From: Lampris incognitus
Taxonomy: Eukaryota > Chordata > Actinopteri > Lampriformes > Lampridae
Direction of reading: 5' to 3'
NCBI RefSeq assembly: GCF_029633865.1
Contig: NC_079212.1
Coordinates: forward strand, 86,916,172 to 86,980,171
Length of the DNA stretch: 64,000 nucleotides
Shown here: piece after piece, positions 5,909-64,000 of the stretch
Position numbering within the stretch: position 1 is the first letter of the stretch
Layout of the letters: every line of letters starts with the position of its first letter
Made by a program: the position numbers and the translations under genes
Notes under the pieces: generated by a model
What the model was told of the DNA's origin: nothing
Seen by the model: the letters and a program-made list of their open reading frames with translations, nothing else
Database searches by the model: none

Positions 5909-6063
5909 TGTAACGTGCATGGATAAGAAGACACGCTGGCCGCTGGCTCGAGGGTTGGACCCTTTAGTCGACTGGTTAACGTTGTCGCTTGCGGAGCGGG
6001 AGACACAGGTTCGCGTCCCGGCCATGGTGACGGTCTCCCAGACTGCCCCCCGAATTTGCTACA
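5909..6063 (+). repeat. TRIM 5' LTR, subtype I, with tRNA-like core
   Basis: This 155-bp LTR contains TAGTCGACTGG, 10 of 11 to the Pol III A-box, and GGTTCGCGTCC, 10 of 11 to the B-box, about 37 bp apart. The 155-bp length equals that of the LTRs at 51129-51827. Confidence 0.8.
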
Positions 6064-6082
6064 TTTGTGTCAGAAGTGGGAT
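6064..6082 (+). other. TRIM primer-binding site
   Basis: The site reads TTTGTGTCAGAAGTGGGAT here and TTGGTGTCAGAAGTGGGAT in other copies. From the TGG it is complementary to the 3' end of vertebrate tRNA-Leu (CAG), including CCA, as I remember that tRNA. This copy carries one G-to-T change within TGG. Confidence 0.75.
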
Positions 6083-6165
6083 GGAGCGACTGTACGGCCA
6101 TCGGAAGCGTAGGCGCCCTGAGGCGTGAAGGAGCTGATATGCTTAAGCGCGGGGACGCGCTTCCC

Positions 6166-6180
6166 GAAGGAGGGGGGTAG
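6166..6180 (+). other. TRIM polypurine tract
   Basis: GAAGGAGGGGGGTAG directly abuts the 3' LTR, the position expected of a plus-strand primer. Confidence 0.75.
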
Positions 6181-6322
6181 TGTAACGTGCATGGATAAGA
6201 AGACACGCGGGTCTGACACTTTAGTCGAGCGGTTAGCGATGCTTCCTGCGGTGCGGGCGATACGGGTTCGCTTCCCGGCCGCGGCAGTTCCTGTGGTTGC
6301 GTTGTCCCCCGAATTCACTACA
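6181..6322 (+). repeat. TRIM 3' LTR, subtype II
   Basis: This 142-bp LTR has a full A-box match (TAGTCGAGCGG) and a B-box match GGTTCGCTTCC with one mismatch. It ends CAGTTCCTGTGG...ACTACA like the solo LTR at 8031, not like its own 5' partner. Confidence 0.8.
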
Positions 6323-8200: not shown

Positions 8201-8540
8201 CTAACTTAAAATGTTACCTTTATGTATATATATACATACACACACACCTAACCTAAAATCTTACCAGAGCAAATCTGTGATCTTAATGTTAATTTGAAAA
8301 AATATTTGACGTGCTAATAGCGTTAGTGAGAATTCCCAGAATGCAACGCGCGTGTGACGTCACGACCGAAAGACCGACTGAAAAGGTGAGAACCTGAATG
8401 GCACCAAAGTGTTAGCGTTCGTTCGCTTACAAAAAAACAATAGATGAATAAATGTTTCATCAAGTTCACAAACGTAATGGCAACTTCAGCGTCCATAAAT
8501 TGGAGACGATGTGGCCTATCACAGGCTTTTTTATCCCTAC
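8201..8540. other. Unassigned sequence
   Basis: Apart from a short TA/CA-rich run near 8225-8250 and the possible transposon end near 8367-8410, nothing is recognised. Confidence 0.45.
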
Positions 8541-8544
8541 CTGT

Positions 8545-8635
8545 ATACACATTAGCCGAGCGGTTAGTGATATCGCCTTGTGGTGCGGTACACCCCGTAT
8601 CGAATCCCGCACCGGGCAAGAAAATAACCGGTTTC
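8545..8635 (+). repeat. tRNA-like repeat, relative of the TRIM LTR core
   Basis: TTAGCCGAGCGGTTAGTGAT...TATCGAATCCCGCACCGGGC matches the longer copy at 61794-61928. It has an A-box match TAGCCGAGCGG (11 of 11) and a B-box-like TATCGAATCC. It has no gene-like acceptor stem, so it is a repeat and not a tRNA gene. Confidence 0.65.
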
Positions 8636-13271: not shown

Positions 13272-14250
13272 ATAAATCCTTTCTTTGGAAGATTTAATTT
13301 ATAAACCTAACCCTTGAAAGAAGACATTTAAAATTTGTTTTAAATTTTAAATCCGTCTTACAAATAAAATGTAATTATGTATTTAACAGTTCATCATATG
13401 TAAATATATTGTAGCGAATTCGGGGGGCAGACCGGGAACCGTGGCCACAGCCGGGACGCGAACCCGCGTCTCCCACTCTGCAAGCGACAACGTTAACCAG
13501 TCGATTAAAGGGCCCGATCCGTTAGCCAAGGACCAACGTGTTATCCATGCACGTTACGCTATCCCGCTCCTTCGGGAAGCGCGCCTCCGCGCTTCAGCAT
13601 ATCAGCTCCCTCACGCCTCTGGGCGCACGCGCTTCCGATTGCCTCACGGTCTCCCCATCCCACTTCTGACACCAATTCGGGGGGGCAACCACAGGAACTG
13701 CCGCGGCCGAGATGCGAACCCGTATCGCCCGCACCGCAGGAGACATCGCTGACCGCTCGACTAAAGGGTCCCGCGGCCATCGTGTTTACTTATCCATCCA
13801 CGTTACACTACCCCGCTCCTTCGGGAAGCGCGCCCCGCGCTTCAGCAGATCAGCTCCCTCACGCCTCTGGGCGCACGCGCTTCCGACGGCCTCACGGTCT
13901 CCCCATCCCACTTCTGACACCAACGTAGCGAATTCGGGGGGACCGTCGCCCCAGCCGGGACGCGAACCCGTGTCTCCCACTCCGCAAGCGACAACGTTAA
14001 CCAGTCGACTCAAGGGTCCGACCCGTTAGTCAAGGACCAACGTGTCTACTTATCCATGCACGTTACAATATTAAATATTTCATTTGCAACTAAATATTTA
14101 TTTTTTTATAGAATATTTAGATGTGATTCAAATATTTAATCTTTGCTAAGTATTTACTTTGTAAGACATGTGATATTTAAAACAGTTTTCAATGTCCTCT
14201 TTCAAGGGTTAGGTGTATAAATCAAATCTGTCCAAAGAAAGGATTCGTTT
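13272..14250. mobile_element. Long inverted repeat hosting a TRIM array
   Basis: About 13272-13400 and 14090-14250 are inverted copies. The outer parts read AATCCTTTCTTTGG and AACCTAACCCTTGAAAGA, complemented on the right. This looks like an AT-rich foldback or MITE. The TRIM array 13410-14067 sits in the loop. Confidence 0.6.
13410..14067 (-). mobile_element. TRIM array: three LTRs, two interiors
   Basis: The + order is LTR 13410-13558, interior 13559-13675, LTR 13676-13807, interior 13808-13923, LTR 13924-14067. The outer two LTRs are subtype I and the central one is subtype II; the central one has lost its first 8 bp. Both interiors keep the Leu-type primer-binding site (complement at CCCACTTCTGACACCA) and the polypurine tract. 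ATAT flanks the whole array (13406-13409 and 14068-14071), so it entered as one unit. Confidence 0.88.
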
Positions 14251-14542
14251 CTCCCAGCAGGGTTCCAGACCTGCGGGGGGAGGCCTGTGAACGTGTTCCT
14301 GTGCAGGTCTACCCACCCCTACACGTTTGGGGGCCACACAGAGGTCACCGAGCCGCGCGTCCCGGCAGGTCTCTTCTTTCTCTTCTTTTTTTAGCGCCTT
14401 TGCGCAGCCGCGGTGTGGAGCGGCGCCCCGACGTGACGCTCGCGCTTCCCAAGCCGTTGATCCGGTCAAGTCGCGTGAGGATTCGGTGACCTCGGCGGGG
14501 CTTCTGCACACGCAAGGTGATCAGCTCAGCTGCGCGCGGAAG

Positions 14543-15031
14543 ATGAGGTCTTTCCTGATGGGTCTGTGCGAAGTCGTGGTCCGGGTGCTGACTTGGCCGC
14601 TGTACGTGATGAAGGCGGTGGGCTTGTACAAGCGGCTGTTCCCGCTGCTCGCCTACAACATCACGTTCTCCTACAACGCCAAGATGCACGAGGAGAAGAG
14701 GAACCTCTTCCGAAATCTTTGGAAATATGCCAACACGGACGGCACGCTGCGTCTGCTCGAGATCGGCTGCGGTTCCGGGGCAAACTTCAAGTTCTACCCG
14801 GATGGCTGCACGGTCGTATGCACCGACCCGAACCCGCACTTTAAGAAATACCTGCAGATGAGCATGCACGGCAGCGACCATTTAACCTACGAGAACTTCC
14901 TAGTTGCCCAGGGAGAGGACCTGGGACACATCGGGGACGAGTCTGTTGACGTGGTGGTCTGCACGCTGGTCTTGTGTTCCGTCACCGACGTGCAGCGTGT
15001 GCTTTCGGAGGCGCGACGCATCCTCAGGACG
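14543..15031 (+). CDS. mettl7a: mettl7a exon 1 coding part
   Basis: It encodes residues 1-163 from MRSFLMGLC to RRILRT and ends at ACG|GTGAGT, phase 0. The upstream sequence is GC-rich, as expected for a 5' UTR. Confidence 0.9.
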
Positions 15032-18000
15032 GTGAGTCCGGTCCAAGCCTTATTACTATCCCTCCCATGTGCACTTAAGTCCCGCATCCGATGCTACAAT
15101 GCAGGCTTTAATTGGACACTTGAGTAGCGGGGGGAAAGTGGGCGGGGCTTATTATACGGCACGGTGGCCCAGCGGTTAGCGCTGTCGCCTCACAGCAAGA
15201 AGGTCCCGGGTTCGAACCCCAGCCCCTTTCTGTGTTTGCATGTTCTCCCCGTGTCTGCGTGGGTTTCTTCCGGGTGCTCCGAAACATGCATGTTAGGGTT
15301 ACTACTCCTGCCTGTGCCCCTGAGCAAGGCAGCGGGGAGAAGAATTGGAGTTGGTCCCCGGGCGCTGCAGCTGCCCACTGCTCCTATACAGTAGGAGGGG
15401 TTACATGCAGGGAACACATCCATTGTAACTTGCACAATGATAAAATAAAGTGGCTTCGTCTATATAGATAAATGAATAACTTTTTACATACTTTTAACTT
15501 GTGCTCAAACGCAGTAAGATGTTGCTTAATTGTGTTGCTAAGCTAATCACAACATTAATGATATTCCTTGATTCAAATCACTTCTGTTATCAGTTGCACA
15601 AAATCCAGACCTATAGACCTAAATAATTTAACAATCTCCATCATTATACAGTTAGGCTACGCTATGATAACAGACATCTGCTGGCTCTGCAGTTGGGCCA
15701 CCAACATAGTCTCCAGAACCCACACGGTAAGGGCACTTCTGTAACTATTCTGATTAATCCATCCATCCATCCATTATCCAAACCGCTTATCCTGCTGTCA
15801 GGGTCACAGGTAGCGTTTTGATTAAATGGTGTTAAAAACCCCAGGCAATGACATGCGGCTGGAGGGAACAAAACAGATCAATTGTAAACACTCGTTCCAT
15901 CAATAATGGATCTGAGTGTGGCAGAGAGGTGAAGGAGGCCATGGCACAGACCTGCAGCTGTAGTTTTTTAGGTTTTAAGTGATTTTCTACACGCATCAGT
16001 GGAAATACAGTGAAGTCATACAGATTTACACCATATACACTAATAGAATCGTACGAATGAAAGAAAAAAGAAGGGTGATGGACAGGTTGACGGACAAGAT
16101 CAGGCAGGAGTCTCCGTGGACGATGATGTTTGCGGATGACATTGTGATCTGTAGTGAGAGTAGGGTGCAGGTGGAGGAGAGCCTGGAGAGGTGGAGGTAT
16201 GCACTGGAGAGAAGAGGAGTGAAAGTCAGTAGGAGCAAGACGGAATGCCTATGCGTGAATGAGAGGGAGGACAGTGGGATGGTGAGGATGCAAGGAGTGG
16301 AGGTGACGAAGGCATATGAGTTTAAATACTTGAGGTCAACTGTCCAAAGTAACGGGGAGTGCAGGAGAGAGGTGAAGAAGAGCGTGCAGGCAGGGTGGAG
16401 TGGTTGGAGAAGAGTGTCAGGAGTGATGTGTGACAGAAGGGTACCAGCAAGAGTTAAAGGGAAGGTTTACAAGATGTGTGTGAGACCAGCTATGTTATAT
16501 GGTTTGGAGACAGTGGCAGTGATGGAAAGACAGGAGGTGGAGCTGGAGGTGGCAGAGTTGAAGATGATAAGATTTTCATTGGGAGTGATGAAGGAGGACA
16601 GGATTAGGAATGAGTATATTAGAGGGACAGCTCAGGTTGGACGGTTTGGAGACAAAGCAAGAGAGGCAAGATTGAGATGGTTTGGACATGTGTGGAGGAG
16701 AGATGCTGGGTATATTGGGAGAAGGATGCTGAATATGGAGCTGCCAGGGAAGAGGAGAAGAGGAAGGCCAAAGAGGAGGTTTATGGACGTGGTGAGGGAG
16801 GACATGCAGGTGGCTGGTGTGACAGAGGAAGATGCAGAGGACAGGAAGAAATAGAAACGGATGATCCGCTGTGGCGACCCCTAACGTGAGCAGCCGAAAG
16901 TAGTAGTAGTCCTCATCATCATCATCATCATTATCATCCTTCGACCGCAGTTGAGCAGTAGTAGTAGTAGACACTCATAAAATCATAAATGATAAACCAG
17001 TTCCTTTACTGCTGTTGGTCATGATTCTGGGTTGCTGACCATACTACTGCTACTCCTTACTACTTTTATAAAACATCTCGAAGTACTGCAAAAATTAATT
17101 TTTGGGTTTATCTATTTATACTTAATTTAATAGCGCAATGACTTTGACAGACAGCTAGTCAGGTAGACAGATAAGAGAAATCGAGAGAAAATGATGAGGA
17201 GAAAATGATGAAGATGGACAATATGAAGTTTCATCCAAGTTAAAAAGTAGAGGGTGCCACTTGGCCCCCAGTGCTGTTTTTATAATGAGTGTTAAAAACC
17301 GATGGAGCTTAAGGATGCTCTTGGCGCCCCTGTTGGAGAATATAAATGTCCTGTCTACTCATGCTCACCGCGTCAGAGTTGGCAGCCCTGAATGTACCCA
17401 TGTATTTTCCATAACCAATCTTTTCGTAACTACTGATCAGTGGTATTCGATCATGTGCCATTGAGAGGCACATCGATGCAGGTCTTCATTCCAACCCAAC
17501 ACTACTCCATCTGATTTGACTGATACACACACGTTCCATCGGACAGGAGAGGACTGTTTGGTGAAATCAGTTGGTGTAGTGTTGGGTTGGAGAGAAAACC
17601 TGCATGCACATGGCTCTCAGTGGCACATGGTTGAATCCCCCTGCAGTAAAAGAATGGTGCCACAAAGGTGTAAACTCAAACTTGGTTTTAATAACGATTT
17701 AATCATGTGGTTTTCAATCTGGTCCATGTGAAACCCCAGTGCCGCCATTTTTCTAGTCTGCCAGGTAGTTCATTGCACTCACCTGTTATCTCATCTCATT
17801 ACCGGCCGCTTCTCCAAAACAGACACACTCCTCACCTTGAGAGCCTGTCCATGAGTATCACAAACAGAATTAGAGACAAGGGACAACATTGTCTTGTTCA
17901 CCTGTTGTTCCAGGTCAAAAACCTCCCTGATTGGAGGCTGAATACCTGTCTCAACAGGGGTTCCACAAGGACCAGATTGAGAACCATTATATTAAATAAT

Positions 18001-20599: not shown

Positions 20600-23500
20600 C
20601 TGCGAGAGAGAGAGAAGGGGAAAATAAGTTCTGGAATCAGTCCTCTAAAGATGATTCTGCCATCAGTAACTATTGAGCAGTATGGATAAAAGGTGTGTAT
20701 CCTGTCTATGTAAAGCTATTAAGAAACTGGGAGCATATAAAAACTGGGAACGAGGGTTGGTAATGGTAAAGTTGGGGGTTTTGACTTATTGGGATATCTT
20801 CATATAGCCTGATTTAAGAAGATGAAGTCATTTAGAAATCTTCCCAATGTTTAAAACGCTCCTCCTAAACTATGTTGTAACTTGCTTTGTAGAAATTAGG
20901 ACACTGCAAACTACCCTACCCACAATGCATTTATAACTGATCCAGCATTGTTCTAATAAGATTATGAACTAATATTCACAATCAGAATCAGGTTTATTGG
21001 CCATGTAGCTTTGCACGTACATGGAATGTGACTCTGGTTTCATGGCTCTCTGTGTACTTAACATAGAGTAACAACACTACAACACAACAACATATTCCCG
21101 TCAATGCCAAATATTTTGAGAAAATGCTGATTGGAAAATGATGGCAACATCACTTCATGCATTCTTTCATCGATGTCCACATGGTGAGGAGTAATCATTT
21201 ACATTTTAAAGAGTTGCATCACCCCTCAGTATCAACTGTGCTTTCCCCCTTCTCATCTCTGAAACATACTCAAGAGACTGGACAGTCTGAGAGGCAGAAT
21301 GTGAGGTGGTTGGAATCAGAATATCTCTGATCAGTGGGAGCAGGTAGAGTCGTACTTTTGTTTTTTGGCACGAGTGACACATCTGTGGAGAAAAGTTCTT
21401 GGAAATGGAGGTTTTTTGGGTTTTTTTACATGTGTAGCCCTTCAGAAAACCAAAAAGTCTTTCATTGTTTATACATTCTAAAAATAATATCTGTACCTGT
21501 TTTTTGCTAGGCGGATTTCCCTCTTCATTGTTGGGTCATCAGACTTGGTCTGAGAAAGTCCCACAGGAGACGTCATCACGACGGTTTGAGGGAGGGAGCT
21601 AGATGTGGGAGCTGTGCGTATCTGGTATGTTTGCACCTCTCCGCCTGCACCTGAGAGTAGGGTAACAATTTCATAAAGAAAAGAAGGTCAATAAGCATGG
21701 GTTAAAGCAAGGGAAAAGCTCACAACTGAAAGAGAGAACGGATGTCGGAGTAGGAGCGCTGGCGGTGGAGCGAGTGCCATGGATTGCAGTGTTTCTGGTA
21801 CAATTACATGGTCTATCCAGTCTAATGCTGTGATAATGGCAAGGGAAGTAAGTATAGCACTCTGCAGGTGTAGTTATATGTGTATGTGAAGCAGCCCATG
21901 GGAACTTTAACACATTGTTGAGCCCTCTCCTGCTTAACACTTGGTCTCCCCCAACCCAAAGAAAAATACGTTAACACTCATTTAGAACATGCAGTGTCAC
22001 ACACCTTGTACAACCACCTGGTTACTGGGCACCAATATCTGCTGGCCATCTGGTGTTTGGGCATACTGTAGGATGGTGGTGCCTTGCTGGGCTGTACCAG
22101 AGTTGGTCATGGTAAGGGCCTGCAGTCCCTGAATGCCTTCGGATCCCGGACTTGCCAGTTGAATTGTGCCATTAGGAGCTATGGTAACTGCAGTACACAC
22201 ACGGATGATAACTCATTTAGGCAAGGCACACATGTCAGAGCTAAGCCATGGCTGGCTGAGGAAGCAGCAAGGATCTTCTTCAGTCACAATTCTACACACT
22301 TCACTGACAACTGCCCAAAACACAGTTATTATTAGTGTCTGATTGAGACTGGCTGCGTCACCTGAGTATGTACCACATTTTTTTTAAAACTTTTAAAACC
22401 CCACTTGTATAGACTGGACTTTTTATAAGTTTGTTTCTCTGCAACTCCTATTGGCTTCATTTGTCTTTTAATCTTGTTTTGTTTGTTTATATTTCTTTTA
22501 TTGTTGAGTGATTGGTCCCGTTTATAAATGTAAATTTTTCACTTGCCATTTTCATGTTGTGTACAATTATGCATTTTATTATCAAGTCAAGTTCATTTTA
22601 TTTGTATAGCCCAATATCACAAATTACAAATGTGCCTCAGGGAGCTTTAAAGCAACACAACATTACAGTTACAATTACAGCAATACAACATCCTGTCCTT
22701 AGACCCTCAGGAATCAGGAACATTTTGTCGTTTGTGTACATGAAATGAAACAGCATATCATTTCCCCCAGCCCACAGCAGTGCAACACAAAGACAAAAAC
22801 ACATACCCAAAACCTACAAGAACATATATCCTACAGCACAGCGTCCCATCACTGCTCCGGGGAATTGGGATGTTTTATTAGGACCAGAGGGAAGACTGCC
22901 CCCTACTGGCGAACCAACACCACTTCTAGCAGAAACTTAGTTTTCCCAAGAGGTCTCCCTCCAAGAACTAGCCAAGCCCATACCTGTTTAGCTTTGGTCA
23001 TTCAGCAGAACCAGGGTACATGTTGATATGGCTGCTGGCTGATTATTAGAGTCTCTGGGTCAGCCATGGACAGGAAAGACCAAATTTTAGCTATGTTACG
23101 CAGATGAAAAAAGGAAGTCTTGGTGATTTCTTTAATGTGCTTATCAAGGGGAAAAGCTGGGATCAAACGTAACACCAAGATTTTTGATTGCCACACTTTG
23201 TGAAACCACAGAATTGTTGACTGTTATTGTTACTTGAGCAGATTGGTGTCTGTGTCTAGCAGCGCCAACGACCAGCATCTCAGTTTTATCTGAATTTAAA
23301 AGCAGGAAATTTAGCGACATCCAATTTTTCACAGCAGCCAAGCAGGCCTCTAAATTAATCTTTGAATATGATCATCAGCCCTTACAGGCAAATACAACTG
23401 AGTATCATCTGCATAGCAATGGAAATGTATTCTATCACTGCGTATAATTTGGCCAAGAGGTGAAATATAAAGAGAGAAAAGAAGTGGGTCAAGAACCGAG

Positions 23501-41978: not shown

Positions 41979-43195
41979 TCACCGGCCACTTTATTAGGCA
42001 CACCTGTCCAACTGCTTGTTAACGCAAATTTCTAATCAGCCAATCACATGGCAGCAACTCAATGCATTTAGGCATGTTGACATGGTCAACACGATCTGCT
42101 GCAGTTCAAACCGAGCATCAGAATGGGGAAGAAAAGTGATTTAAGTGACTTTGAACGTGGCATGGTTGTTGGTGCCAGACGGGCTGGTCTGAGTATTTCA
42201 GAAACTGCTGATCTACTTGGATTTTCACGCACAACCATCTCTAGGGTTTACAGAGAATGGTCCGAAAAAGAGAAAATATCCAGTGAGCGGCAGTTCTGTG
42301 GGCGAAAATGCCTTGTTGATGCCAGAGGTCAGAGGAGAATGGCCAGACTGGTTCGAGCTGATAGAAAGGCAACAGTAACTCAAATAACCACTCATTACAA
42401 CCGAGGTATGCAGAAGAGCATCTCTGAACGCACAACACGTCAAACCTTGAGGCAGATGGGCTACAGCAGCAGAAGACCACACCGGGTGCCACTACTGTCA
42501 GCTAAGAACGGGAAACTGAGGCTACAATTCGCACAGGCTCACCAAAATTGGACAATAGAAGATTGGAAAAACGTTGCCTGGTCTGATGAGTCTCGATTTC
42601 TGCTGCGACATTCGGATGGTAGGGTCAGAATTTGGCATCAACAACATGAAAGCATGGATCCATCCTGCCTTGTATCAACGGTTCAGGCTGGTGGTGGTGG
42701 TGTAATGGTGTGGGGGATATTTTCTTGGCACACTTTGGGCCCCTTAGTACCAATTGAGCATCGTGTCAACGCCACAGCCTACTTGAGTATTGTTGCTGAC
42801 CATGTCCATCCCTTTATGACCACAGTGTTCCCATCTTCTGATGGCTACTTCCAGCAGGATAACGCGCCATGTCATAAAGCTCGAATCATCTCAGACTGGT
42901 TTCTTGAACATGACAATGAGTTCACTGTACTCAAATGGCCTCCACAGTCACCAGATCTCAATCAAATAGAGCACCTTTGGGATGTGGTGGACCGGGAGAT
43001 TCGCATCATGGATGTGCAGCCGACAAATCTGCAGCAACTGCGTGATGCTATCATGTCAATATGGACCAAACTCTCTGAGGAATGTTTCCAGTACCTTGTT
43101 GAATCTATGCCACGAAGGATTAAGGCAGTTCTGAAGGCAAAAGGGGGTCCAACCCGGTACTAGCAAGGTGTACCTAATAAAGTGGCCAGTGAGTG
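41976..43195 (+). mobile_element. Tc1/mariner transposon copy 2 (DD36E type), intact frame
   Basis: The ends are CACTCACCGGCCACTTTATT and CACTTTATTAGGTACACC-type complement, with TA on both sides (41974-41975 and 43196-43197), inside an (AT)n microsatellite. At 1220 bp it has the same length as copy 1. Confidence 0.95.
42123..43163 (+). CDS. Tc1-like DD36E transposase, full length (346 aa)
   Basis: The frame is open from ATG 42123 to TAG. Residues 1-60 are a helix-turn-helix ([19 protein letters not shown]), and a second DNA-binding region follows to about 120. The catalytic residues are D155 (AWSDESRF), D246 ([10 protein letters not shown]) and E283 (QIEHLWD). I count 36 residues between the second Asp and the Glu, where classic Tc1 has 34. 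This spacing is reported for the Incomer (DD36E) group. The motif reads NQIE rather than NPIE: a Pro-to-Gln change at residue 281 that copy 1 does not share. All three acidic residues are present, but the Gln next to the catalytic Glu may reduce activity. Confidence 0.92.
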
Positions 43196-50780: not shown

Positions 50781-51104
50781 CAGGGGTCCCCAATATGCGG
50801 CCCGCGGGCCACGTCCGGCCCTTGACGGGTTGATTTATGGTCCGCGAGAATTTTTGGAGAAATGCCAGAGGGAAGAATTTTTTTATTTCCCTACCCAATA
50901 ATAAATAATTAATTGATTTCTTAGTAAAAGTAAGACTAGTAATATATCGAAAAAGAGATGAAAAATCTGTTTAAATTATAATACCTGCAACGTATCGACA
51001 CCGAAACAAACCAACGAACAACATGCTGCTGGAGGTTGAGTGGCCCGTGGTTTTAAAAGTGGCCCTAAAAGTGGCCCGCCATGAAAAGTAATTGGGGACC
51101 CCTG
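50781..51104. mobile_element. hAT MITE with perfect 8-bp target duplication
   Basis: The ends are CAGGGGTCCCCAA and TTGGGGACCCCTG, with CTATACTA on both flanks (50773-50780 and 51105-51112). A related copy in the other orientation lies at 60238-60889. Confidence 0.9.
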
Positions 51105-51128
51105 CTATACTACATTCCTAAAACATAG

Positions 51129-51827
51129 TGTAGCGAATTAGGGGGGCAGTTCGAGATACTGTCGCCACAGCCGGGACGCGAACCCGTATCTCCTTCACCG
51201 CAAGCGACAACGTTAACCAGTCGACTAAAGGGTCCGACCCGCTAGTCAAGGGCCAACGTATCTACTTATCCATGCACGTTACACTACCCCCCTTCTTCGG
51301 GAAGCGCGTCCCCGCGCTTAAGCATATCAGCTCCTTCACGCCTCAGGGCGCCTACGCTTCCGATGGCTTTACGGTCGCTCCATCCCACTTCTGACACCAA
51401 TGTAGCGAATTCGGGGGGCAGTCCGAGATACCGTCGCCACAGCCGGGACGCGAACCCGTATCTCCTGCACCGCAAGCGACAACGTTAACCAGTCGACTAA
51501 AGGGTCCGACCCGCTAGTCAAGGGCCAACGTGTCTACTTATCCATGCACGTTACACTACCCCCCTTCTTCGGGAAGCGCGTCCCCGCGCTTAAGCATATC
51601 AGCTCCTTCACGCCTCAGGGCGCCTACGCTTCCGATGGCTTTACGGTCGCTCCATCCCACTTCTGACACCAATGTAGCGAATTCGGGGGGCAGTCCGAGA
51701 TACCGTCGCCACAGCCGGGACGCGAACCCGTATCTCCTGCACCGCAAGCGACAACGTTAACCAGTCGACTAAAGGGTCCGACCCCCTAGTCAAGGGCCAA
51801 CGTGTCTACTTATCCATGCACGTTACA
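51129..51827 (-). repeat. TRIM array with 272-bp period (three LTRs)
   Basis: The LTRs are 51129-51283, 51401-51555 and 51673-51827, each 155 bp and nearly identical. The interiors are 51284-51400 and 51556-51672, each 117 bp. Each interior carries the Leu-type primer-binding site complement (ATCCCACTTCTGACACCA) and the polypurine complement CTACCCCCCTTCTTC. Confidence 0.92.
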
Positions 51828-51949
51828 CTACCCCCCTTCTTCGGGAAGCGCGTCCCCGCGCTTAAGCATATCAGCTCCTTCACGCCTCAGGGCGCCTACG
51901 CTTCATTGGCCTTACGGTCGCTCCACCCCACTCCTGGTACCAAAAATTA
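51828..51949 (-). other. Hybrid interior with gypsy primer-binding site
   Basis: The first 100 bp equal the TRIM interior. The last part reads ACCCCACTCCTGGTACCA plus AAAATTA, which is the gypsy primer-binding site and spacer also found at 58747-58770. The switch lies within or next to the primer-binding site. Confidence 0.88.
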
Positions 51950-52873
51950 TGTAGCCCGAGGAATTAGATACCACACAGGACACAATTACTTCCGGGGTTC
52001 TTGTAGCTTTAATTTTATTCTTTGAACCTTCGAATGCAGATCGTTTTACTGAGTGCATAAATTCCTGTGTCTTTCGAGCAAACAGCTCATAAATGTTCAC
52101 AGATGTGGCAAGTTTAACAGAAAAGATTTTAAAAGGACAATAAATACAACATACAACATACGGTGCAAAATACGGCAGTGGACTATGTATGTTAAACAGG
52201 GTTTAACAAAGACATGTGGAACTTCCTGAAGATCGCGCAACTTCTCACTCTGTCAGTTACCTTTAAACAGAATTAAAATGCATATAAAACCTTTACATTT
52301 CCCTTACTGCCCAAATACAATGGCATGGTGTGGCTTTATGCACGCCAACATTACCTTGTCATGCCTTCAATGGCGAACAGTGGTCGACGGCTCGCGCCCA
52401 AAATCACCGAACATCAACTCCAGTAGCGTCTAAATCAAACCATCTTGTCAAATTACCGACATACAATATTGTTTGGAATAATGTTACAGGTATATTTCAC
52501 AAGATATTTACCCCCACTCACCGCGGAGTCAGAGCACCGTCACACCGCAATCTTCAGGTGCCCCACACAAGAAAAAAAGAAAGAATACCCAAGATGCACT
52601 TGGATAACTTGCAGAAAGAGTACCCAAGATGCACTTGGATGACTTGCACGGAGTTACAATAAAAGTCCGCAACACTGCCACTTACTGGTCAAAACATGCA
52701 ATGACAACCAAAACTATAAAAATACACTCACAATCTGCTTCACAATTTAAATACATCAAATGACATTTTACATGGCTTGACAGTGTAACAATTACATATA
52801 TTAACAGTTAAACTATACTAAATTTAAGTGGAAAATCATTTAACATATTTAACAGATTTACCACCCGGCTACA
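51950..52873 (-). repeat. Gypsy 3' LTR (924 bp)
   Basis: On + it runs TGTAGCCCGAGGAATTAG to CCCGGCTACA. It is nearly identical to 58771-59680; the main difference is about 14 bp near 52670, so insertion was recent. Confidence 0.93.
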
Positions 52874-52885
52874 TACTCCCCTGCA
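52874..52885 (-). other. Gypsy polypurine tract
   Basis: TGCAGGGGAGTA in element sense directly precedes the 3' LTR. Confidence 0.65.
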
Positions 52886-53138
52886 AATATAGTCAACGTC
52901 CTCGGTGACTACGAAACATGAACTGACTCAAATACTCCCTGCAAGGCCTTTTCAAAGAGAGCAGCACCCAGGCTTGTCAAAACCTTAGAGACCATGTCTG
53001 TGCTGACTGAGACTGCATTACAGGCTGACTTTGGCAGATGAAATGGGTTTGAATGAGATCCAGCCATTTCCCGCTTGCTTTTCCTAATGGCAGGTTTAGG
53101 TGCATAGGTTCTACGTCCTGCTCCACCAGCATCATCTG

Positions 53139-56100
53139 TTAGTCCCTGTTTTCAATAATGGGCAAGTCACTGTCGCTAACACATTCTGTTTCTGTGCCAC
53201 AATTTCTCATATCTGAATAACCTTCCTCAGGTCCTTCACCGTCACTCTCATCTGTGGGTGCTGTCACATGTAAACTAACACTTCCTGCTGCAAGAGGCAG
53301 GTTAGGTACTTGCACAAGCCGGCGAGGGATGACTTCCTCAACAATAACAAAATCAGCCTCAGGTGACTCAGGCTCATCCTCAGCTACAGGCTGTGTAGTG
53401 GTCTGTAACCTAGTTCTAGTTCTTGGTTTGGGAACTGGTTTTGCACAAGGTCGCAACTCTGACCTATGAACTCTTTTAATGGGACCTCCCTCAAAAGGTT
53501 CAACAGTGTGTGTGGTACCCTGGATGTCAACTAGCTTGTAGACTGTTGAGGTCCATGTGTCCTGAATCTTATGTCTACCTGGGGGTCTGTGACGTAGAAA
53601 AACCAACTGACCAATGTCCACAGGAGGACAATACACCTTCTCATTTTGCAGTGAGATCCTCTCAGCTACCTTCTGCTCTGAGTACTCTCTGGCTCTCTCG
53701 TGTGCCTGTCGGAGTCTCTCCTGATGAACAGACAACCAATCCTGTTTCCTGTCTGACACACACTCACGCCCTAATAAAGCATCTACTGGGAGATGTGGCT
53801 GTACCCCGAAAAGCAAATAATAAGGCGAGTACCCTGTGGTGGAATGAGGAGTGACATTATAGGCATATACTACTTCAGACAGATGCTCTGGCCAACGCTT
53901 TTTTTTCTCTGGTGGGAGTGTCCTTAACAAGTCATGGAGTGTGCGATTGTATCTTTCACACTGACCGTTTCCCTGTGGCCTGTAGGGAGTTGTCCGTGTC
54001 TTTTTAACCCCATAGAGTTTGCACAGCTCTGCTATAATTTCACTCTCGAAATTTCGACCTTGGTCTGAGTGCAGTCTCTCTGGGACCCCATATTTCATGA
54101 ACCACTCCCTGAGCAAAACTTTAGCTGTAGTGTCAGCCTTCTGGTCTTTGGTAGCATACGCTTGTGTGAACTTTGTAAACACATCGGTCACAACAAGGAC
54201 ATTTTCACGGCCATCTGAAGTTGCCTCTAACACTGTAAAATCAACAGCCACCGCTTCTAGAGGTCGGGAGGCCAGGAATGCCTGAACTGGAGCATGGATT
54301 TTTGGCTGAGGCATCTTGGTCAAAATGCACCGCTCGCAGTTTTTAACCCAGCTTTCAACATCCTCGCATAGCCCTACCCCAAAACACCTCCCTCTTAGCA
54401 AGTTTACAGTGCGCTCTATGCCCTGATGTCCCATGTTGTTATGTACATTTTCTAGAACTTGGTCCCTCAAACAACTAGGCACGAGTAACTGCCACACTTC
54501 TCCATGACGTGGGTCTGTGATAACCTTGTACAACAACCCTTCTCGTTGTTGTATGCATTTCCATTGTTTCAACAATCTTTTCACTTCACTAGACAGGGCT
54601 GCTCTCTCTCTGGGACATGGCCTCCTCCCCCGATCCCAAAATGCCCTAAACTCTTTTAGGGTGGGGTCACCGGCCTGAAAACCTACCAGCTCCTCTCTGG
54701 TATAACCTGGCAGTGTGGGGGTGTTGCCCTGTTTAGTACCTGTCTCACCAGACCTCGACTCCCCAGCACGGATCTGTCTCACTTTGTAACACTCCAGACC
54801 TCTAGAGACAAGACCAGGATCCAGAACTGTTCCTCGCTCAATCAGGTTACACACAGTGATACAGTCGTCAAAATCCGAGTCAGGGTCTGTTTCAGGCTCC
54901 CCTGCAAACTCCTGCCTAGAGAGAGCATCTGCGGCGGCATTACTGCAACCAGGACGGTACTTAACCTCGAAATCAAAAACAGACAGTTGCGCTACCCACC
55001 TCTGCTCTATAGCACCTAACTTGGCTGTCTTGAGGTGGCAGAGGGGATTGTTATCAGTCAGGACAACAAACTTTGAACCAAGCAAGTAACCCCTGAATTT
55101 TTCAGCAACTGCCCATTTTAAGGCAAGCAACTCCAACTTCATGCTACTATAATTTCGGTCATTCTTCTCAGCCTGGCGTAGTCTGCGGCTAGCATATGCT
55201 AGGACACGTCTGGTGTCACCTTGCTGCTGACACAATACAGCGCCTAATCTATGCTGACTAGCATCTGTCTCAACTACAAATGGTTGTGTGAAGTCGGCAA
55301 AACCCAAAATGGGAGCAGAGGTAAGTTTTTCCTTTAACTGCTCAAAGGAAGAGTCACACTCTGGTGTCCACATATTACAAAACTGGTGACCTACTTTCCC
55401 TGTTTTTTTCACACCTGAACATTTGTTGACTAGGTCATGCAGTGGCCCAGCAATCTGTGAGAAGCCTCGAATGAATCTCCTGTAGTAACTACAGAAACCC
55501 AAGAACGACTGCAGCTCGTTGGCAGTGGTTGGGACCTTCCAGTTCTTAACAGCAGAGACCTTGGAGGGGTCAGTTCCTATACCTTCTGCTGACACCTGAT
55601 GACCCAAAAACTTTACTGGCTGTTGTAGAAAAGCACACTTCTGCAACTTCACCTTAAGGCCCGTCTCTGCCAGTCTCTTAAACACAGTCTCAAGTCTCTC
55701 CAAATGCTGCTCAAATGTCTCTGAAAAAACCAAGATGTCATCTAGGTAGACCAGGAGTATCTGAAAAATGAGATCATTCATAGTAACTTGCATAAGTCTC
55801 TGAAATGTAGCTGGACCGTTACAAACACCAAAAGGCATTCTCACGTACTCATACAGACCAAACGGTGTAGTAAATGCAGTCTTAGTCCGATCTCTCTCAT
55901 GCATAGCTACCTGGTGGTATCCGCTCGCCAGATCTATGGTCGAAAAGAACTTTGCCCCTCTCAGCGCATCAAAACTCTCATCAATTCTCGGGAGCGGGAA
56001 TGCATCACGTCTTTTCTTTGAGTTGAGTTTCCTGTAATCGACACATAGCCTCAGACTACCATCTGCCTTTCTCACTAGTACTATGGGCGAAGCATAAGCA

Positions 56101-57245
56101 CTAGAGCTTTCTTGAATGACCCCTTTTTTAAGCAGCTTGCCAATATGTTCCCTGACTTCACTGTACTGTGTGGGTGGGATTTGTCTGTATGGCTGTGTTA
56201 CAGGTATGTCATCTGTCAGATGGATCTCATGTTGTACTTTGTCAGTGTGGCCTAGATCTTCATCTTCTGTTGCAAACACAAAAGAGTACTTCTCCAGTAA
56301 CAAAGTCAGCTGTGCTTGCTGTTCTGGGCTACCACAAAAATTGAGCTTGCTGAGAATTTCCTGCACATCTGTCGGTGTTTCGGGGTGTTCACTGATACTC
56401 ACTTGTTCAGTGTCTGCTGAGATTCTCTGGAACTGTACCTCACAAAGCTCATCACTTTTCACACAGTCTACCTGAGTCAAAACCCCTAGCCTAGTCCGTG
56501 GCCCTAGCCAGATATCTTCATCAGACATGTTCATGACTCGGACTGGAAAAATGTGATTGCCCGATGAAACCAAAGTAGGCACAACAACCAAACCTCCAGG
56601 AACGGGGACACCCACAGACTCCAGCAACAAAAAAGAACCATCCTCACTCACGGTCCTGAGTCCCCTAGCCATAACTGTAGCAGCAGATGAAGCAGGTATA
56701 TGGACTACATCCTTACCAGTTACCCTAGCGAAAGAGAGTCTGTCTGTTGCATGTACTGCATGAAGATGATTAAAAGCCTCTCTCCAGTTTGAGTCAAACC
56801 TCTCCTGCAGTGTGGTGTCAAACTCAGTGTGTACTAGCTCTCTGCATTTTTTGACAATGTTCATCCCTATTAGACCTGGAACAGAGGAAGAGTGTTCAGA
56901 ATCTTTAACTATCAGAAAACCTCGCTCTGGGATAGTCAGACCCATGGCTTCTACATCAAGATCCACATAGCCCATATAGGGTATGTCTAATCCATTAGCT
57001 GCAGTGATCTTTAACCACTCAAATGCCGGGTGAATGTCTTCGCCTTTCACTGACAGGTGTTCCCTGAAAAAACTCTCAGAAATTGTACTGACCTGGCTAC
57101 CAGTGTCAAGTAAGCAGGACACTGTAACACCTCGTAGTTTCACCTCAACAGTTTTACATTCTCCGACTGCACGCGCCAAGATCCTGCTTCTGTCTGGAGT
57201 CTCTTTTGGTGAGCCAGCTTCCTCCCCTCGAGTTGTGTGGCTCAT
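53139..57245 (-). CDS. pol: Gypsy Pol polyprotein, intact (1368 aa)
   Basis: This frame encodes the enzymes for copying and inserting the element. In order: aspartic protease (LLDTGS, D47), reverse transcriptase about 345-560 (VDYRKLN, FSTIDLASGYHQV, YLDDIL at 500-505), RNase H about 655-780 (VETDAS, D661), and the integrase zinc finger H935/H940/C970/C973. The integrase core follows with D1002, D1061 (HSDQG) and E1097, 35 residues between the last two, then a GPY/F-like region near 1230-1260. No stop or frameshift interrupts it. The order RT-RNaseH-IN is that of Ty3/gypsy. The ATG overlaps the gag stop as ATGA. The frame above the ATG closes at a TAG 14 codons upstream, so any -1 frameshift would have to occur in a 39-nt window. 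Confidence 0.95.
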   Translation of the reverse strand: MSHTTRGEEAGSPKETPDRSRILARAVGECKTVEVKLRGVTVSCLLDTGSQVSTISESFFREHLSVKGEDIHPAFEWLKITAANGLDIPYMGYVDLDVEAMGLTIPERGFLIVKDSEHSSSVPGLIGMNIVKKCRELVHTEFDTTLQERFDSNWREAFNHLHAVHATDRLSFARVTGKDVVHIPASSAATVMARGLRTVSEDGSFLLLESVGVPVPGGLVVVPTLVSSGNHIFPVRVMNMSDEDIWLGPRTRLGVLTQVDCVKSDELCEVQFQRISADTEQVSISEHPETPTDVQEILSKLNFCGSPEQQAQLTLLLEKYSFVFATEDEDLGHTDKVQHEIHLTDDIPVTQPYRQIPPTQYSEVREHIGKLLKKGVIQESSSAYASPIVLVRKADGSLRLCVDYRKLNSKKRRDAFPLPRIDESFDALRGAKFFSTIDLASGYHQVAMHERDRTKTAFTTPFGLYEYVRMPFGVCNGPATFQRLMQVTMNDLIFQILLVYLDDILVFSETFEQHLERLETVFKRLAETGLKVKLQKCAFLQQPVKFLGHQVSAEGIGTDPSKVSAVKNWKVPTTANELQSFLGFCSYYRRFIRGFSQIAGPLHDLVNKCSGVKKTGKVGHQFCNMWTPECDSSFEQLKEKLTSAPILGFADFTQPFVVETDASQHRLGAVLCQQQGDTRRVLAYASRRLRQAEKNDRNYSSMKLELLALKWAVAEKFRGYLLGSKFVVLTDNNPLCHLKTAKLGAIEQRWVAQLSVFDFEVKYRPGCSNAAADALSRQEFAGEPETDPDSDFDDCITVCNLIERGTVLDPGLVSRGLECYKVRQIRAGESRSGETGTKQGNTPTLPGYTREELVGFQAGDPTLKEFRAFWDRGRRPCPRERAALSSEVKRLLKQWKCIQQREGLLYKVITDPRHGEVWQLLVPSCLRDQVLENVHNNMGHQGIERTVNLLRGRCFGVGLCEDVESWVKNCERCILTKMPQPKIHAPVQAFLASRPLEAVAVDFTVLEATSDGRENVLVVTDVFTKFTQAYATKDQKADTTAKVLLREWFMKYGVPERLHSDQGRNFESEIIAELCKLYGVKKTRTTPYRPQGNGQCERYNRTLHDLLRTLPPEKKKRWPEHLSEVVYAYNVTPHSTTGYSPYYLLFGVQPHLPVDALLGRECVSDRKQDWLSVHQERLRQAHERAREYSEQKVAERISLQNEKVYCPPVDIGQLVFLRHRPPGRHKIQDTWTSTVYKLVDIQGTTHTVEPFEGGPIKRVHRSELRPCAKPVPKPRTRTRLQTTTQPVAEDEPESPEADFVIVEEVIPRRLVQVPNLPLAAGSVSLHVTAPTDESDGEGPEEGYSDMRNCGTETECVSDSDLPIIENRD

Positions 57246-58393
57246 GACAACTGAGGGTGCGAGTTTTCCTGCCCTCCATAAGAACTAGGTGTTGCGTCCT
57301 CTTGACCCCCTCTGGCCTGTGAGCATTTTCTTGCAATGTGACCTATGCCTCTACACTTGAAACAGATAGGCTGACCATCTGGTGTGAACTTTGGCTGGGG
57401 TCTAGGTCGTGGCTTGGGCTCTAGGAATGTCTGTTGAGTGCTGCGCTTACTCAGTTCACCTACAGCAAAGGCTAGATCAGCAAGTGTTTTGCCTAACTCT
57501 GCTAGCTGTTTTTCCTGATGGGCTACTGCTCTCCGAACATCATTTAATGCAGTACCTTGGTCATTGTTTGTTTTAATAATAGAGCACTGGGTTTCTGGAA
57601 CCTCTGATGTAACTTGGTTGCTCTTTATGACCCTGGGACGATGAGACCTGCTGTCCTCCATCTCCCACAGGAGGGCCTCGTTCCTCACATCTAGAAGACT
57701 GCTCTCTGGTTTGTCCCTAACCATTTTCCTGAGTTCACGCCTGAGTGCTGCTTCTCTTAAACCCTCAATAAACCGGTCTCTGAGCACAGTTTTCTCATTA
57801 GGTATTACATCTGTGGACTGTTTCACTACAGAGCTCAAAATCTGGGATAGTGCATGGGAGTAGTCACGGAGGTCTTCTCCATCAGTTTGGTTACGGTTGT
57901 AAAAGGTCTGCAAAAGCTGTGTGGAACTGCGCTTTTTCCCAAATGCATTGCTCAGGTAAGAGTATAAATCACTGGGCCCCACTGACTGACCCCTCATGCA
58001 TAGTCGCACCTCTTCCAATGCAGGGCCACGCAATAGAGATAGTATATAGTCACATTGTTCTTCTGTTGTTTGCTCTCTGTATCTTAAAACCCTTTCAACC
58101 TCTTCAATAAACTCTTCGACAGATCTCCTGTCTGTACCACACTCCCCACTAAATGCTTGGATCTGGCGTTCTCTTGGAACGTAGATGTATGAACGTGTGG
58201 GTGCACTGTTATCACTTGCTCTCTGAGCCCTTGCTTCACCATTTAACCTGGTGAGCTCATCTCGCAGTCTGGCGAGCTCTTGCATGGTGGTCTGCATTTC
58301 TTTTGTAGCACCTTCACCTATACCCGTTATGCCACCTGAGGTGTGGCCATTATCATTACGTGAACTCCCTTCATCACCAGAATCACTAGACAT
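57242..58393 (-). CDS. gag: Gypsy Gag, intact (383 aa)
   Basis: This is the structural protein that packages element RNA. It is Ser/Gly-rich at the N-terminus, with a helical capsid-like region at about 75-250 (RQIQAFSG, EFIEEVERVLRYREQ, LSLLRGPALEEV) that resembles PNMA/Ty3 Gag. One CCHC zinc knuckle follows (CFKCRGIGHIARKC, C344/C347/H352/C357). ATG 58393 is the first in frame, 377 bp inside the 5' LTR. The stop TGA lies inside ATGA shared with pol. Confidence 0.93.
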   Translation of the reverse strand: MSSDSGDEGSSRNDNGHTSGGITGIGEGATKEMQTTMQELARLRDELTRLNGEARAQRASDNSAPTRSYIYVPRERQIQAFSGECGTDRRSVEEFIEEVERVLRYREQTTEEQCDYILSLLRGPALEEVRLCMRGQSVGPSDLYSYLSNAFGKKRSSTQLLQTFYNRNQTDGEDLRDYSHALSQILSSVVKQSTDVIPNEKTVLRDRFIEGLREAALRRELRKMVRDKPESSLLDVRNEALLWEMEDSRSHRPRVIKSNQVTSEVPETQCSIIKTNNDQGTALNDVRRAVAHQEKQLAELGKTLADLAFAVGELSKRSTQQTFLEPKPRPRPQPKFTPDGQPICFKCRGIGHIARKCSQARGGQEDATPSSYGGQENSHPQLS

Positions 58394-58746
58394 AATGATA
58401 TATTAATCTTTACTCAGTCCAGTATAAATGAGGATATTTAGTTCAAAACCTGGTTCAAGGATACTACAAGGACAGTCTTTATCTTGAAGCCTTGCTGAAT
58501 CTTGGTCTTTGTAGCTGAAGTTAGCGCTGGAGTCCTCTGCGCTGGTACGGCTGAGTCGTGTGACACAGGAAGCACCAGAACCTCGTAGAGCCCCTCACGT
58601 CGTCTCTCGCTGGTCACCACCTCCACAGCAGGATGGCTTCAGACTCAACACCAACGGACGTCACCAGCAATCTTCACCACTGCCGTATTTTTTTAAGTAA
58701 AAATAAGCCACTCTCTTGCCAATTTTAAAAAAAATGTTTTAGCTAC

Positions 58747-58764
58747 ACCCCACTCCTGGTACCA
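58747..58764 (-). other. Gypsy primer-binding site
   Basis: TGGTACCAGGAGTGGGGT begins 6 nt inside the 5' LTR. It is the exact complement of ACCCCACTCCTGGTACCA, the 3' end of vertebrate tRNA-Leu (UAA) as I remember it. Confidence 0.78.
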
Positions 58765-58770
58765 AAATTA

Positions 58771-59680
58771 TGTAGCCCGAGGAATTAGATACCACACAGG
58801 ACACAATTACTTCCGGGGTTCTTGTAGCTTTAATTTTATTCTTTGAACCTTCGAATGCAGATCGTTTTACTGAGCGCATAAATTCCTGTGTCTTTCGAGC
58901 AAACAGCTCATAAATGTTCACAGATGTGGCAAGTTTAACAGAAAAGATTTTAAAAGGAAAATAAATACAACATACAACATATGGTGCAAAATACGGCAGT
59001 GGACTATGTATGTTAAACAGGGTTTAACAAAGACATGTGGAACTTCCTGAAGATCGCGCAACTTCTCACTCTGTCAGTTACCTTTAAACAGAATTAAAAT
59101 GCATATAAAACCTTTACATTTCTCTTACTGCCCAAATACAATGGCATGGTGTGGCTTTATGCACGCCAACATTACCTTGTCATGCCTGCAATGGCGAACA
59201 GTGGTCGACGGCTCGCGCCCAAAATCACCGAACATCAACTCCAGTAGCGTCTAAATCAAACCATCTTGTCAAATTACCGACATACAATATTGTTTGGAAT
59301 AATGTTACAGGTATATTTCACAAGATATTTACCCCCACTCACCGCGGAGTCAGAGCACCGTCACACCGCAATCTTCAGGTGCCCCACACAAGAAAAAAAG
59401 AAAGAATACCCAAGATGCACTTAGATAACTTGCAGAAGGAGTACCCAAGATGCACTTGGATGACTTGCACGGAGTTACAATAAAAGTCCGCAACACTAAA
59501 ATATGCAATGACAACCAAAACTATAAAAATACACTCACAATCTGCTTCACAATTTAAATACATCAAATGACATTTTACATGGCTTGACAGTGTAACAATT
59601 ACATATATTAACAGTTAAACTATACTAAATTTAAGTGGAAAATCATTTAACATATTTAACAGATTTACCACCCGGCTACA
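58771..59680 (-). repeat. Gypsy 5' LTR (910 bp)
   Basis: It has the same TGTAGCC...GGCTACA termini as the 3' LTR. In element sense it is the 5' copy and would carry the promoter. Confidence 0.93.
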
Positions 59681-59732
59681 ATAGCATTAGGAAACAAATC
59701 AACAACAAACAAGAATTAAGTGACTGAAACCG

Positions 59733-60950
59733 CATAGGGGAGAGCGGTGTAAGATGAGCCAATTTTTACATACGTTGTCCTCGAGGTAAGGAAAAACGAG
59801 GCAAGTAGAATGAAAACGTGTACCTTTATTTCAGGATCTCTCCTATCTAATGAAATGATCAGAATGCATCTATGACAAAGCTGCGGGGCAAGTTGAACCA
59901 CTGGCTCCATTTACCCCATAGCCTTTGGCTCACTTTGCCCAATAGACGCCATTTTGGAAAAAAACAGCCTAGTTTAGCAATCCAGGCTAATCTTTAGCAA
60001 AGTCACTCACATGGATGTATATGCTAACAAATCACCGATATGTGTATGTTTTTTAGAACCGGATAAATTTGCTTTGACGTAAGAGCGGTTATACCTGAAC
60101 ATTTACTTTGACAAAACAAAAAAGTTTTCTGAGTACAAAAATACTTACCGCTTCTCTCCATCGCAGCAAGATACAAATGATGGACGCTTCCTGGATTTAT
60201 GGTCACATGACTAAACAAATGCACAGTTGCCTAGATACAGGGGTCCCCAATTACTTTTCATGGCGGGCCACTTTTAGGGCCACTTTTAAAACCACGGGCC
60301 ACTCAACCTCCAGCAGCATGTTGTTCGTTAGTTTGTTTCGGTGTCGATACGTTGCAGGTATTATAATTTAAACAGAGATTTTTCGATATATTACTAGTCT
60401 TACTTTCACTAAGAAATTCATTATTTCACATATAGTAGTGGCCAAAAGTTTAGTGCGGTTGCCGAATTTGTAGGTTTTCAATAGAACGATGATTCGTAAG
60501 ATTCCGACGTTTATTATATTTAATGAAAAGAAACTAACTGGAGTATTTTCAGTAATGCTGATAAGGTCATGTGACGCGCAAGTGAGGGGGGGCTGGACTA
60601 GCCCACAAGGGGAAATGCGGGGTGGAATTTATAGTTACAAGGCAGCATTTCTTGTTGGATTGATTGTTGAAATTATGTTTGGAATAGGGTTCCCAAACAA
60701 AATGTGGAGAAATACCAGAAGGAAGAAACATTTTTTTATTTCCAAAAAAAAATTAAAAGGTTTTTTTTTTTTGGAAGGGAAATAAAACAAAAATCTTCCT
60801 TCTGGCATTTCTCCAAAAATTCTCGCGGACCATAAATCAACCCGTCACGGGCCAGACGTGGCCCGCGGGCCGCCTATTGGGGACCCCTGGCCTAGATACA
60901 GGGGGTGGGTCAACGTGCCCGCTGGCTCATCTCACCCCACTCCCCCTATG
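59733..60950. mobile_element. DNA transposon with 27-bp inverted ends, host of an hAT MITE
   Basis: CATAGGGGAGAGCGGTGTAA at the left pairs with the complement of GAGATGAGCC...CCCCCTATG at the right (60924-60950). The interior is non-coding and split by the hAT copy at 60238. Confidence 0.7.
60238..60889. mobile_element. hAT MITE, second copy, with internal insertion
   Basis: The ends are CAGGGGTCCCCAA and TTGGGGACCCCTG, with GCCTAGATA on both flanks. It is inverted relative to 50781-51104 and carries about 330 bp of extra sequence (from about 60420). Confidence 0.85.
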
Positions 60951-61681: not shown

Positions 61682-61793
61682 ATCTGGACAACACACAACA
61701 ACCAGCACACTAGAGAGGCTACGTTAGATCGAAGGCAGCCGACTCGGCTGAGCTAACCTGGCTAACGGCTAATGCAGCATGGCTAGCTACTGA

Positions 61794-61928
61794 TGTAAAC
61801 TACTAATAAGACCCGTTAGTCCCTAATTAACGGGTCTGACCCTTTAGCCGAGCGGTTAGCGATGTCGCCCTGTGGTGCAGTACACGCCGTATCGAATCCC
61901 GCACCGGGCAAGAAAATAACCGGTTACA
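61794..61928 (+). repeat. Candidate solo LTR with tRNA-like core
   Basis: It runs TGTAAACTACTAATAAGACC to AACCGGTTACA. The core has TAGCCGAGCGG (A-box, 11 of 11) and TATCGAATCCCGCACCGGGC. It is related to 8545-8635 and to the TRIM LTRs. No clean target duplication was found, so the LTR call is tentative. Confidence 0.5.

Positions 61929-62512: not shown

Positions 62513-64000
<1,488 letters not shown>

Follow-up and report, generated by a model that had tools for sequence, protein, structure and literature searches.

A gypsy retrotransposon and a Helenus array joined at the primer-binding site, between matching 4-bp flanks, in Lampris incognitus

Organization of the composite and its flanks

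The 64,000-nucleotide stretch of Lampris incognitus DNA considered here (contig NC_079212.1; hereafter the window) contains, from 59680 to 51129 on the minus strand, a gypsy retrotransposon organized as LTR-gag-pol-LTR (LTR, long terminal repeat), a 122-bp hybrid interior and an LTR-interior-LTR-interior-LTR array of a terminal-repeat retrotransposon in miniature (TRIM). Coordinates are positions in the 64-kb window, the composite is read on the minus strand, and the evidence comes from this one window, from protein matches and from published papers. The original prediction for this DNA was of a complete-looking gypsy element followed, in one sense, by a hybrid interior and three TRIM LTRs. 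Every one of these parts was located on the minus strand (Table 1).

Both open reading frames (ORFs) of the gypsy element, gag and pol, are open. The pol domains follow the order protease, reverse transcriptase, RNase H, integrase, as in Ty3/Gypsy, the protease match scoring 22 bits against a Pfam cut-off of 24.3. Among the best 120 of 3920 matches of the pol ORF, the two top scorers show 87% and 80% identity; the named relatives are mostly from teleosts, such as Triplophysa dalaica (66%), and also from a frog and a sea anemone. The 5′ and 3′ LTRs differ by 8 substitutions over 910 aligned bases, with 14 additional gap columns.

The sequence features of the TRIM agree with those of Helenus, a known group. 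The copy at 5909-6322 illustrates the plan of the element: two LTRs round a short non-coding interior, 414 bp in all and thus below 1 kb. A B-box, GGTTCG, was found in 10/10 Helenus LTRs of the window. An A-box-like motif reads TAGTC in eight of them and GAGTC or TAATC in the remaining two, the pattern having been written to fit the copies. No tRNA match was obtained with Rfam at E<=1 over 51100-51960, and ARAGORN made no tRNA call in the window. At one end of the Helenus interior, a primer-binding site (PBS) of exactly 18 nt is complementary, at 18/18 positions, to what we take to be the 3′ end of tRNA-Leu(CAG); at the other end, a purine tract, AGAAGGGGGGTAG, precedes the LTR.

Animal Helenus elements carry 4-bp duplications, tRNA-Leu is among their vertebrate primers, most of their A boxes are TRGCY, and one of them, LTR-11_DR, forms tandem arrays (Kojima 2024, PMC10886601). 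The element described here resembles them in its size below 1 kb, its A-box-like and B-box-like motifs within the LTRs, its PBS and purine tract, its 4-bp duplications and its tandem arrays. It differs from the Helenus elements of PMC10886601 in that an interior is physically joined to gypsy, and in its A box, TAGTC in 8/10 LTRs, with T as the fourth base, and not TRGCY. The Helenus species table of PMC10886601 has no Lampriformes, the order of the present host.

The outer flanks of the composite read ...AATG-CTAT and CTAT-GTTT, the match ending at exactly 4 bp. As predicted, these are the only matching 4-bp flanks, CTAT/CTAT on the minus strand or ATAG on the plus strand, and they lie outside the whole structure; none is present at the gypsy 3′ LTR, whose own following bases (TAAT...) do not match the gypsy-side flank. 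At local composition, a 4-mer match has a chance of 0.0047, about the same as the 1/256 put forward initially. The Helenus-only insertions of the window all have 4-bp duplications as well (GTAC, ATAT, ATAT, ATAT; 4/4). All five duplications, including CTAT, have the form N-TA-N, the frequency of which among window 4-mers is 0.056. If this form, common to the 4/4 other insertions, is counted, the two values multiply to 0.00027. Finally, gypsy and Helenus have the same termini, TGTA...GCTACA, and both have a purine tract before the LTR.

Insertion of the gypsy element into a Helenus array was considered and rejected: the gypsy element lacks a duplication specific to it, and what follows is its own spacer and PBS. 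On the gypsy side, 200 bp of flank (flanks joined in a script) have no good match elsewhere in the window. On the Helenus side, a repeat starts about 24 bp from the LTR, with a further copy at 60238-60406. Repeats with CAGGGGTCCCC-like ends, at 50781-51104 and 60232-60889, flank the composite on both sides in opposite orientation and form long inverted repeats; they look like non-autonomous elements of hAT type.

Table 1. Parts of the composite, in minus-strand order, and two other Helenus insertions of the window
Feature	Position	Strand	Basis or remark
Target-site duplication, gypsy side	59681..59684	.	CTAT on minus = ATAG on plus
Gypsy 5′ LTR, 910 bp, begins TGTAGCC, ends GGGCTACA	58771..59680	-	Sequence comparison
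Gypsy PBS TGGTACCAGGAGTGGGGT, preceded by 6-nt spacer TAATTT	58747..58764	-	Complementarity to tRNA-Leu(UAA)
Gypsy gag ORF, 383 aa	57242..58393	-	PNMA-type Gag and CCHC zinc knuckle (Pfam)
Gypsy pol ORF, 1368 aa	53139..57245	-	Aspartyl protease (sub-cut-off), reverse transcriptase, RNase H, integrase (Pfam)
Gypsy polypurine-tract region GCAGGGGAGTA, adjoining 3′ LTR	52874..52884	-	Judged by eye
Gypsy 3′ (internal) LTR, 924 bp	51950..52873	-	Sequence comparison
Hybrid interior: gypsy spacer and PBS (51942-51925), then Helenus interior	51828..51949	-	Parent comparison
Helenus LTR a, type A, 155 bp, A-box-like and B-box-like motifs	51673..51827	-	LTR comparison
Helenus interior b, 117 bp, PBS TGGTGTCAGAAGTGGGAT	51556..51672	-	Sequence comparison; complementarity to tRNA-Leu(CAG)
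Helenus LTR b, type A, 155 bp, 1/155 differences from LTR a	51401..51555	-	LTR comparison
Helenus interior c, 117 bp, identical to interior b	51284..51400	-	Sequence comparison
Helenus LTR c (outer right LTR), type A, 155 bp, 5/155 differences from LTR b	51129..51283	-	LTR comparison
Target-site duplication, Helenus side	51125..51128	.	CTAT (minus); flank comparison
Comparison, outside composite: Helenus with unlike LTRs	5909..6322	+	One GTAC duplication; LTR comparison
Comparison, outside composite: Helenus array A-interior-B-interior-A	13410..14067	-	One ATAT duplication; LTR comparison

The hybrid interior and other mixed insertions

The hybrid interior was predicted to have the gypsy PBS and spacer at one end and TRIM sequence for the rest. 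This was borne out: it is gypsy through PBS base 17 and TRIM from base 20. The gypsy PBS comprises exactly 18 nt complementary to what we take to be the 3′ end of tRNA-Leu(UAA). Ten of the first 29 bases distinguish the two parents, and the hybrid has the gypsy base at positions 5, 6, 10 and 17 and the Helenus base at positions 20, 24 and 26-29. The switch therefore falls between base 17 (51926) and base 20 (51923), a three-position interval around base 18. The gypsy spacer of the hybrid has one T more than that at the gypsy 5′ end, and the TRIM part shows one substitution and three gap columns as compared to interiors b and c. Because of these differences, which come in addition to the junction, the hybrid interior is not a copy of interior b or c.

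During reverse transcription, plus-strand strong-stop DNA terminates after about 18 nt of the tRNA have been copied, base 18 being the classical end of the PBS, and minus-strand synthesis likewise tends to stop at the PBS end. Since both strand syntheses tend to halt there, strand transfer during either of them predicts a break near PBS base 18. The position of the break at the PBS edge gives this moderate support: by our estimate, a break placed uniformly in the 29 bases would land there about 1 time in 10. We also considered that the hybrid interior might be a natural Helenus subfamily with a gypsy PBS; this PBS occurs in 0/5 other Helenus interiors of the window, five being a small number.

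Two LTR types were distinguished among the ten full-length Helenus LTRs of the window, with A versus B identities of 70.6-78.0%. Type A comprises the three LTRs of the composite, the left LTR of 5909-6322 and the outer two of the array at 13410-14067. Type B comprises the right LTR of 5909-6322, the middle LTR of 13410-14067, which is without its last bases, and the solo LTR at 8031-8196. The solo LTR at 3871-4020 is of a third kind, neither A nor B. These counts omit three partial LTR-like matches, at 61804-61901 (E 6e-16), 8547-8616 (E 4e-5) and 15168-15223 (E 0.04), the first of which may derive from a Helenus LTR that has decayed. A pair of tRNA-like or SINE-like (short interspersed element) copies, at 8527-8634 and 61793-61925, resemble each other (93.9% over 82 bp) and also match a portion of the profile of the Helenus LTR; they could be the source, or a relative, of the tRNA-like part of Helenus.

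Apart from the composite, both multi-LTR Helenus insertions of the window (2/2) mix A and B types within one duplication, which parallels the mixing of gypsy and Helenus in the composite. In the insertion at 5909-6322 (LTR A 5909-6063, interior 6064-6180, LTR B 6181-6322), the LTRs are 73.6% identical. They agree at 28/28 positions over the first 28 bases and differ at 37/112 over the remainder, whereas over the first 28 bases every one of the 17 other A/B pairs has 2-4 differences. This pattern is a lead, rather than a test, towards LTRs with the U3 region from one template and R-U5 from another.

No TTTT run occurs in 2087 bp of Helenus sequence (51129-51827, 5909-6322, 13410-14067, 3871-4020 and 8031-8196; hybrid interior excluded), as compared to a mean of 3.8 under a Markov model and to zero runs in 2.4% of 500 resamples. 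The element therefore has no standard RNA polymerase III terminator in these stretches, which might favour multi-unit transcripts. The hybrid interior has one TTTT, contributed by the gypsy spacer. Polymerase III read-through was considered as the origin of the arrays and was not adopted.

Origin of the composite

Insertion, in one event, of a chimera formed before integration was proposed at the outset, and it is indeed the best fit to the outer duplication, the PBS-edge junction, the common termini and the two mixed-LTR insertions. In our best reading, which we regard as rather probable, gypsy and Helenus strands were exchanged at the edge of the PBS in the course of gypsy reverse transcription, and a single integration followed. 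A gypsy virus-like particle would have held gypsy and Helenus RNA together, and a strand transfer at the PBS edge would have linked the Helenus interior to the gypsy PBS and LTR. The cDNA, bounded by a gypsy LTR on the left and a Helenus LTR on the right, would then have been integrated in a single event by the gypsy integrase, duplicating 4 bp of the target. One integrase must accept a gypsy end and a Helenus end, which is plausible because the TGTA...GCTACA termini are common to both. The sequence itself shows the anatomy, the one match of the outer flanks, the switch at PBS bases 17-20 and the two other mixed-LTR insertions, from which we infer co-packaging, the role of gypsy as helper and the order of the steps.

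Two routes can be envisaged. Along the first, the Helenus minus strand, halted at its PBS, would have shifted to gypsy RNA and copied gypsy U5-R; after an R-to-R jump the whole gypsy would have been copied, and an intermolecular transfer of gypsy plus-strand strong-stop DNA would have closed the left end. Along the second, gypsy plus-strand strong-stop DNA (the LTR and the 18-nt PBS) would have moved onto the Helenus minus strand, the full gypsy being added through recombination between gypsy LTRs before integration. The outer LTRs are unlike, so an additional step is required. Of the initial proposal of template switching or DNA recombination before integration, simple switching does not account for the unlike outer LTRs; an added intermolecular plus-strand transfer, or recombination between cDNAs, would be needed. 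In retroviruses, the minus strand is known to pass from one co-packaged RNA to another (PMC3187697).

Several observations weigh against such an exchange followed by one integration. Unlike outer LTRs are not produced by ordinary reverse transcription, and the model needs two abnormal steps to account for a composite known from one locus only. The gypsy and Helenus PBSs agree at just 14/18 positions. CTAT is not palindromic, whereas the duplications of the four other Helenus insertions are all palindromes; besides, the three ATAT duplications sit in AT-rich flanks. The pattern in U3 is a weak hint: the boundary at 28 bases was picked after the alignment had been seen, the region is generally more conserved, LTRs a and b of the composite agree at 28/28 positions with an LTR of the separate array at 13410-14067, and within that array the comparison of A with B LTRs over this region gives 3/28 and 3/23 differences. 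Finally, LTR c differs from LTR b (5/155) more than the gypsy LTRs differ from each other (8/910; Fisher p 0.029, or 0.089 without CpG sites). This excess may reflect mixed templates or mixed ages, and the parts need not be coeval. Dating by LTR divergence is unusable if the LTRs derive from different templates.

Among the alternatives, stepwise assembly survives best, although we consider it unlikely. A Helenus chimera with a left gypsy LTR and PBS would have integrated first, and the gypsy body and second LTR would have been added later, with CTAT kept, when gypsy LTRs recombined homologously, for instance with a circle carrying one LTR. One abnormal reverse-transcription step, an intermolecular plus-strand transfer, would then suffice, the insertion at 5909-6322 looks like a Helenus-only case of it, and the parts are possibly of unlike age. 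This scenario requires, however, two separate events, and the window has no gypsy LTR without a body, the only two gypsy LTRs found being those of the composite.

Recombination or gene conversion after integration, by which a separate gypsy element (or gypsy tandem) and a Helenus array would have been joined through short PBS homology, appears more doubtful. That homology exists (the 14/18 agreement), complex insertions arise overwhelmingly by recombination (Sabot and Schulman 2007, PMC1950507), and the near-identical Helenus units suggest recombination at the locus. Joining by deletion nevertheless predicts unmatched flanks, and the flanks match (chance 0.0047, as above). Conversion, for its part, must with 4-6 bp of homology stop exactly at the LTR termini, and it needs a copy of the gypsy LTR-PBS region downstream of a complete gypsy. 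An assembly artefact, the collapse at the PBS of two nearby or homologous repeats, is improbable: repeats are classic misassembly points, but 4 bp agree between the outer flanks, as expected of a true insertion, the junction has bases absent from the gypsy and Helenus copies of the window (the extra spacer T and the patch of indels in the interior), and the window contains no N.

With the exchange at the PBS edge retained, one part of the original prediction may have to be modified, namely that the three-LTR array was part of one integrated unit. LTR a with interior b and LTR b with interior c are equal at 271/272 bases, and the array need not be original. The near-identity of the units (1/272), with LTR c differing at 5/155 positions, fits a later tandem duplication: one Helenus unit (LTR and interior) was probably duplicated by unequal crossing-over. 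At integration, the composite would probably have consisted of gypsy, the hybrid interior and two Helenus LTRs.

Known systems and other features of the window

Complexes with shared LTRs and one outer duplication have been explained by an inter-template jumping model, which predicts alike outer LTRs (Sabot and Schulman 2007, PMC1950507). Like these complexes, the composite shares an LTR internally, has two interiors that run the same way and shows the duplication of a single integration (CTAT on both sides). Unlike them, it does not join close relatives with alike outer LTRs: here the LTRs are unrelated, the outer ones being gypsy and Helenus. The composite works like a Sabot-Schulman complex but is not classed as one, the outermost LTRs of that class being highly similar. 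VejuL and BARE2 are likewise credited to template switching between different co-packaged RNAs, and are plant elements (PMC1950507). In the einkorn centromere, recombination of two RLG_Quinta lineages is credited to template switching (PMC11302176). Tandem TRIM arrays occur in 35/43 plant genomes, putative autonomous relatives having been named by sequence likeness (Gao 2016, PMC4717578), and template switching or recombination has been offered for Cassandra arrays (Kalendar 2020, PMC7215508). The present array has the same tandem LTR-interior units; in the passages of these two papers considered here, no array includes an autonomous element.

In animals, mobilization of Helenus by Gypsy has been inferred from PBS likeness and 4-bp duplications, and the same article calls the mechanism of Helenus primer change unknown (Kojima 2024, PMC10886601). 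No report of a Helenus-Gypsy chimera was found in the open-licence literature searched. The composite is a known kind of event with a new pairing, and gives physical evidence that an animal Helenus has a Gypsy partner. A physical chimera names a candidate helper, one that PBS matching alone might have passed over given the different type of tRNA-Leu. The suggestion that this gypsy is the autonomous partner of the TRIM is plausible without being proven, the two PBSs apparently differing in tRNA-Leu type.

We tentatively put forward, as a possibility that we would not yet call likely, a PBS handover: through strand transfer between elements at the PBS edge, gypsy strong-stop DNA would replace the Helenus PBS, converting it from the tRNA-Leu CAG to the UAA type, and non-autonomous elements could in this way change primer and stay matched to their helper. 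If this is true, mixed-LTR insertions would be a routine product of Helenus mobilization. The signature of a gypsy LTR, gypsy PBS and Helenus interior can be counted genome-wide, and the primer-switch mechanism becomes testable.

Exact patterns of the Helenus and gypsy PBS and LTR motifs gave 0 matches in a viral contig collection, and one Helenus pattern gave 0 in prokaryote genome contigs; the collections searched for copies being viral and prokaryotic, these absences mean little. Searches of viral contigs based on pol gave no relative, one being without any pattern match and another giving 56 pattern matches, none of which was confirmed.

Elsewhere in the window, the minus strand carries a 5S rRNA-like sequence at 22924-23039 (Rfam RF00001, 47 bits). 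Three long ORFs, at 10250-11275, 42123-43163 and 62879-63922, have transposase domains of Tc1/mariner type, and the last also has a DNA-binding domain of Sleeping Beauty type. The ORF of a methyltransferase, at 14327-15127, matches a Lampris incognitus protein with 100% identity over 61% of the ORF; the next identity among the best 120 of 427 matches is 77%, and a Goodea protein at 62% scores more bits.

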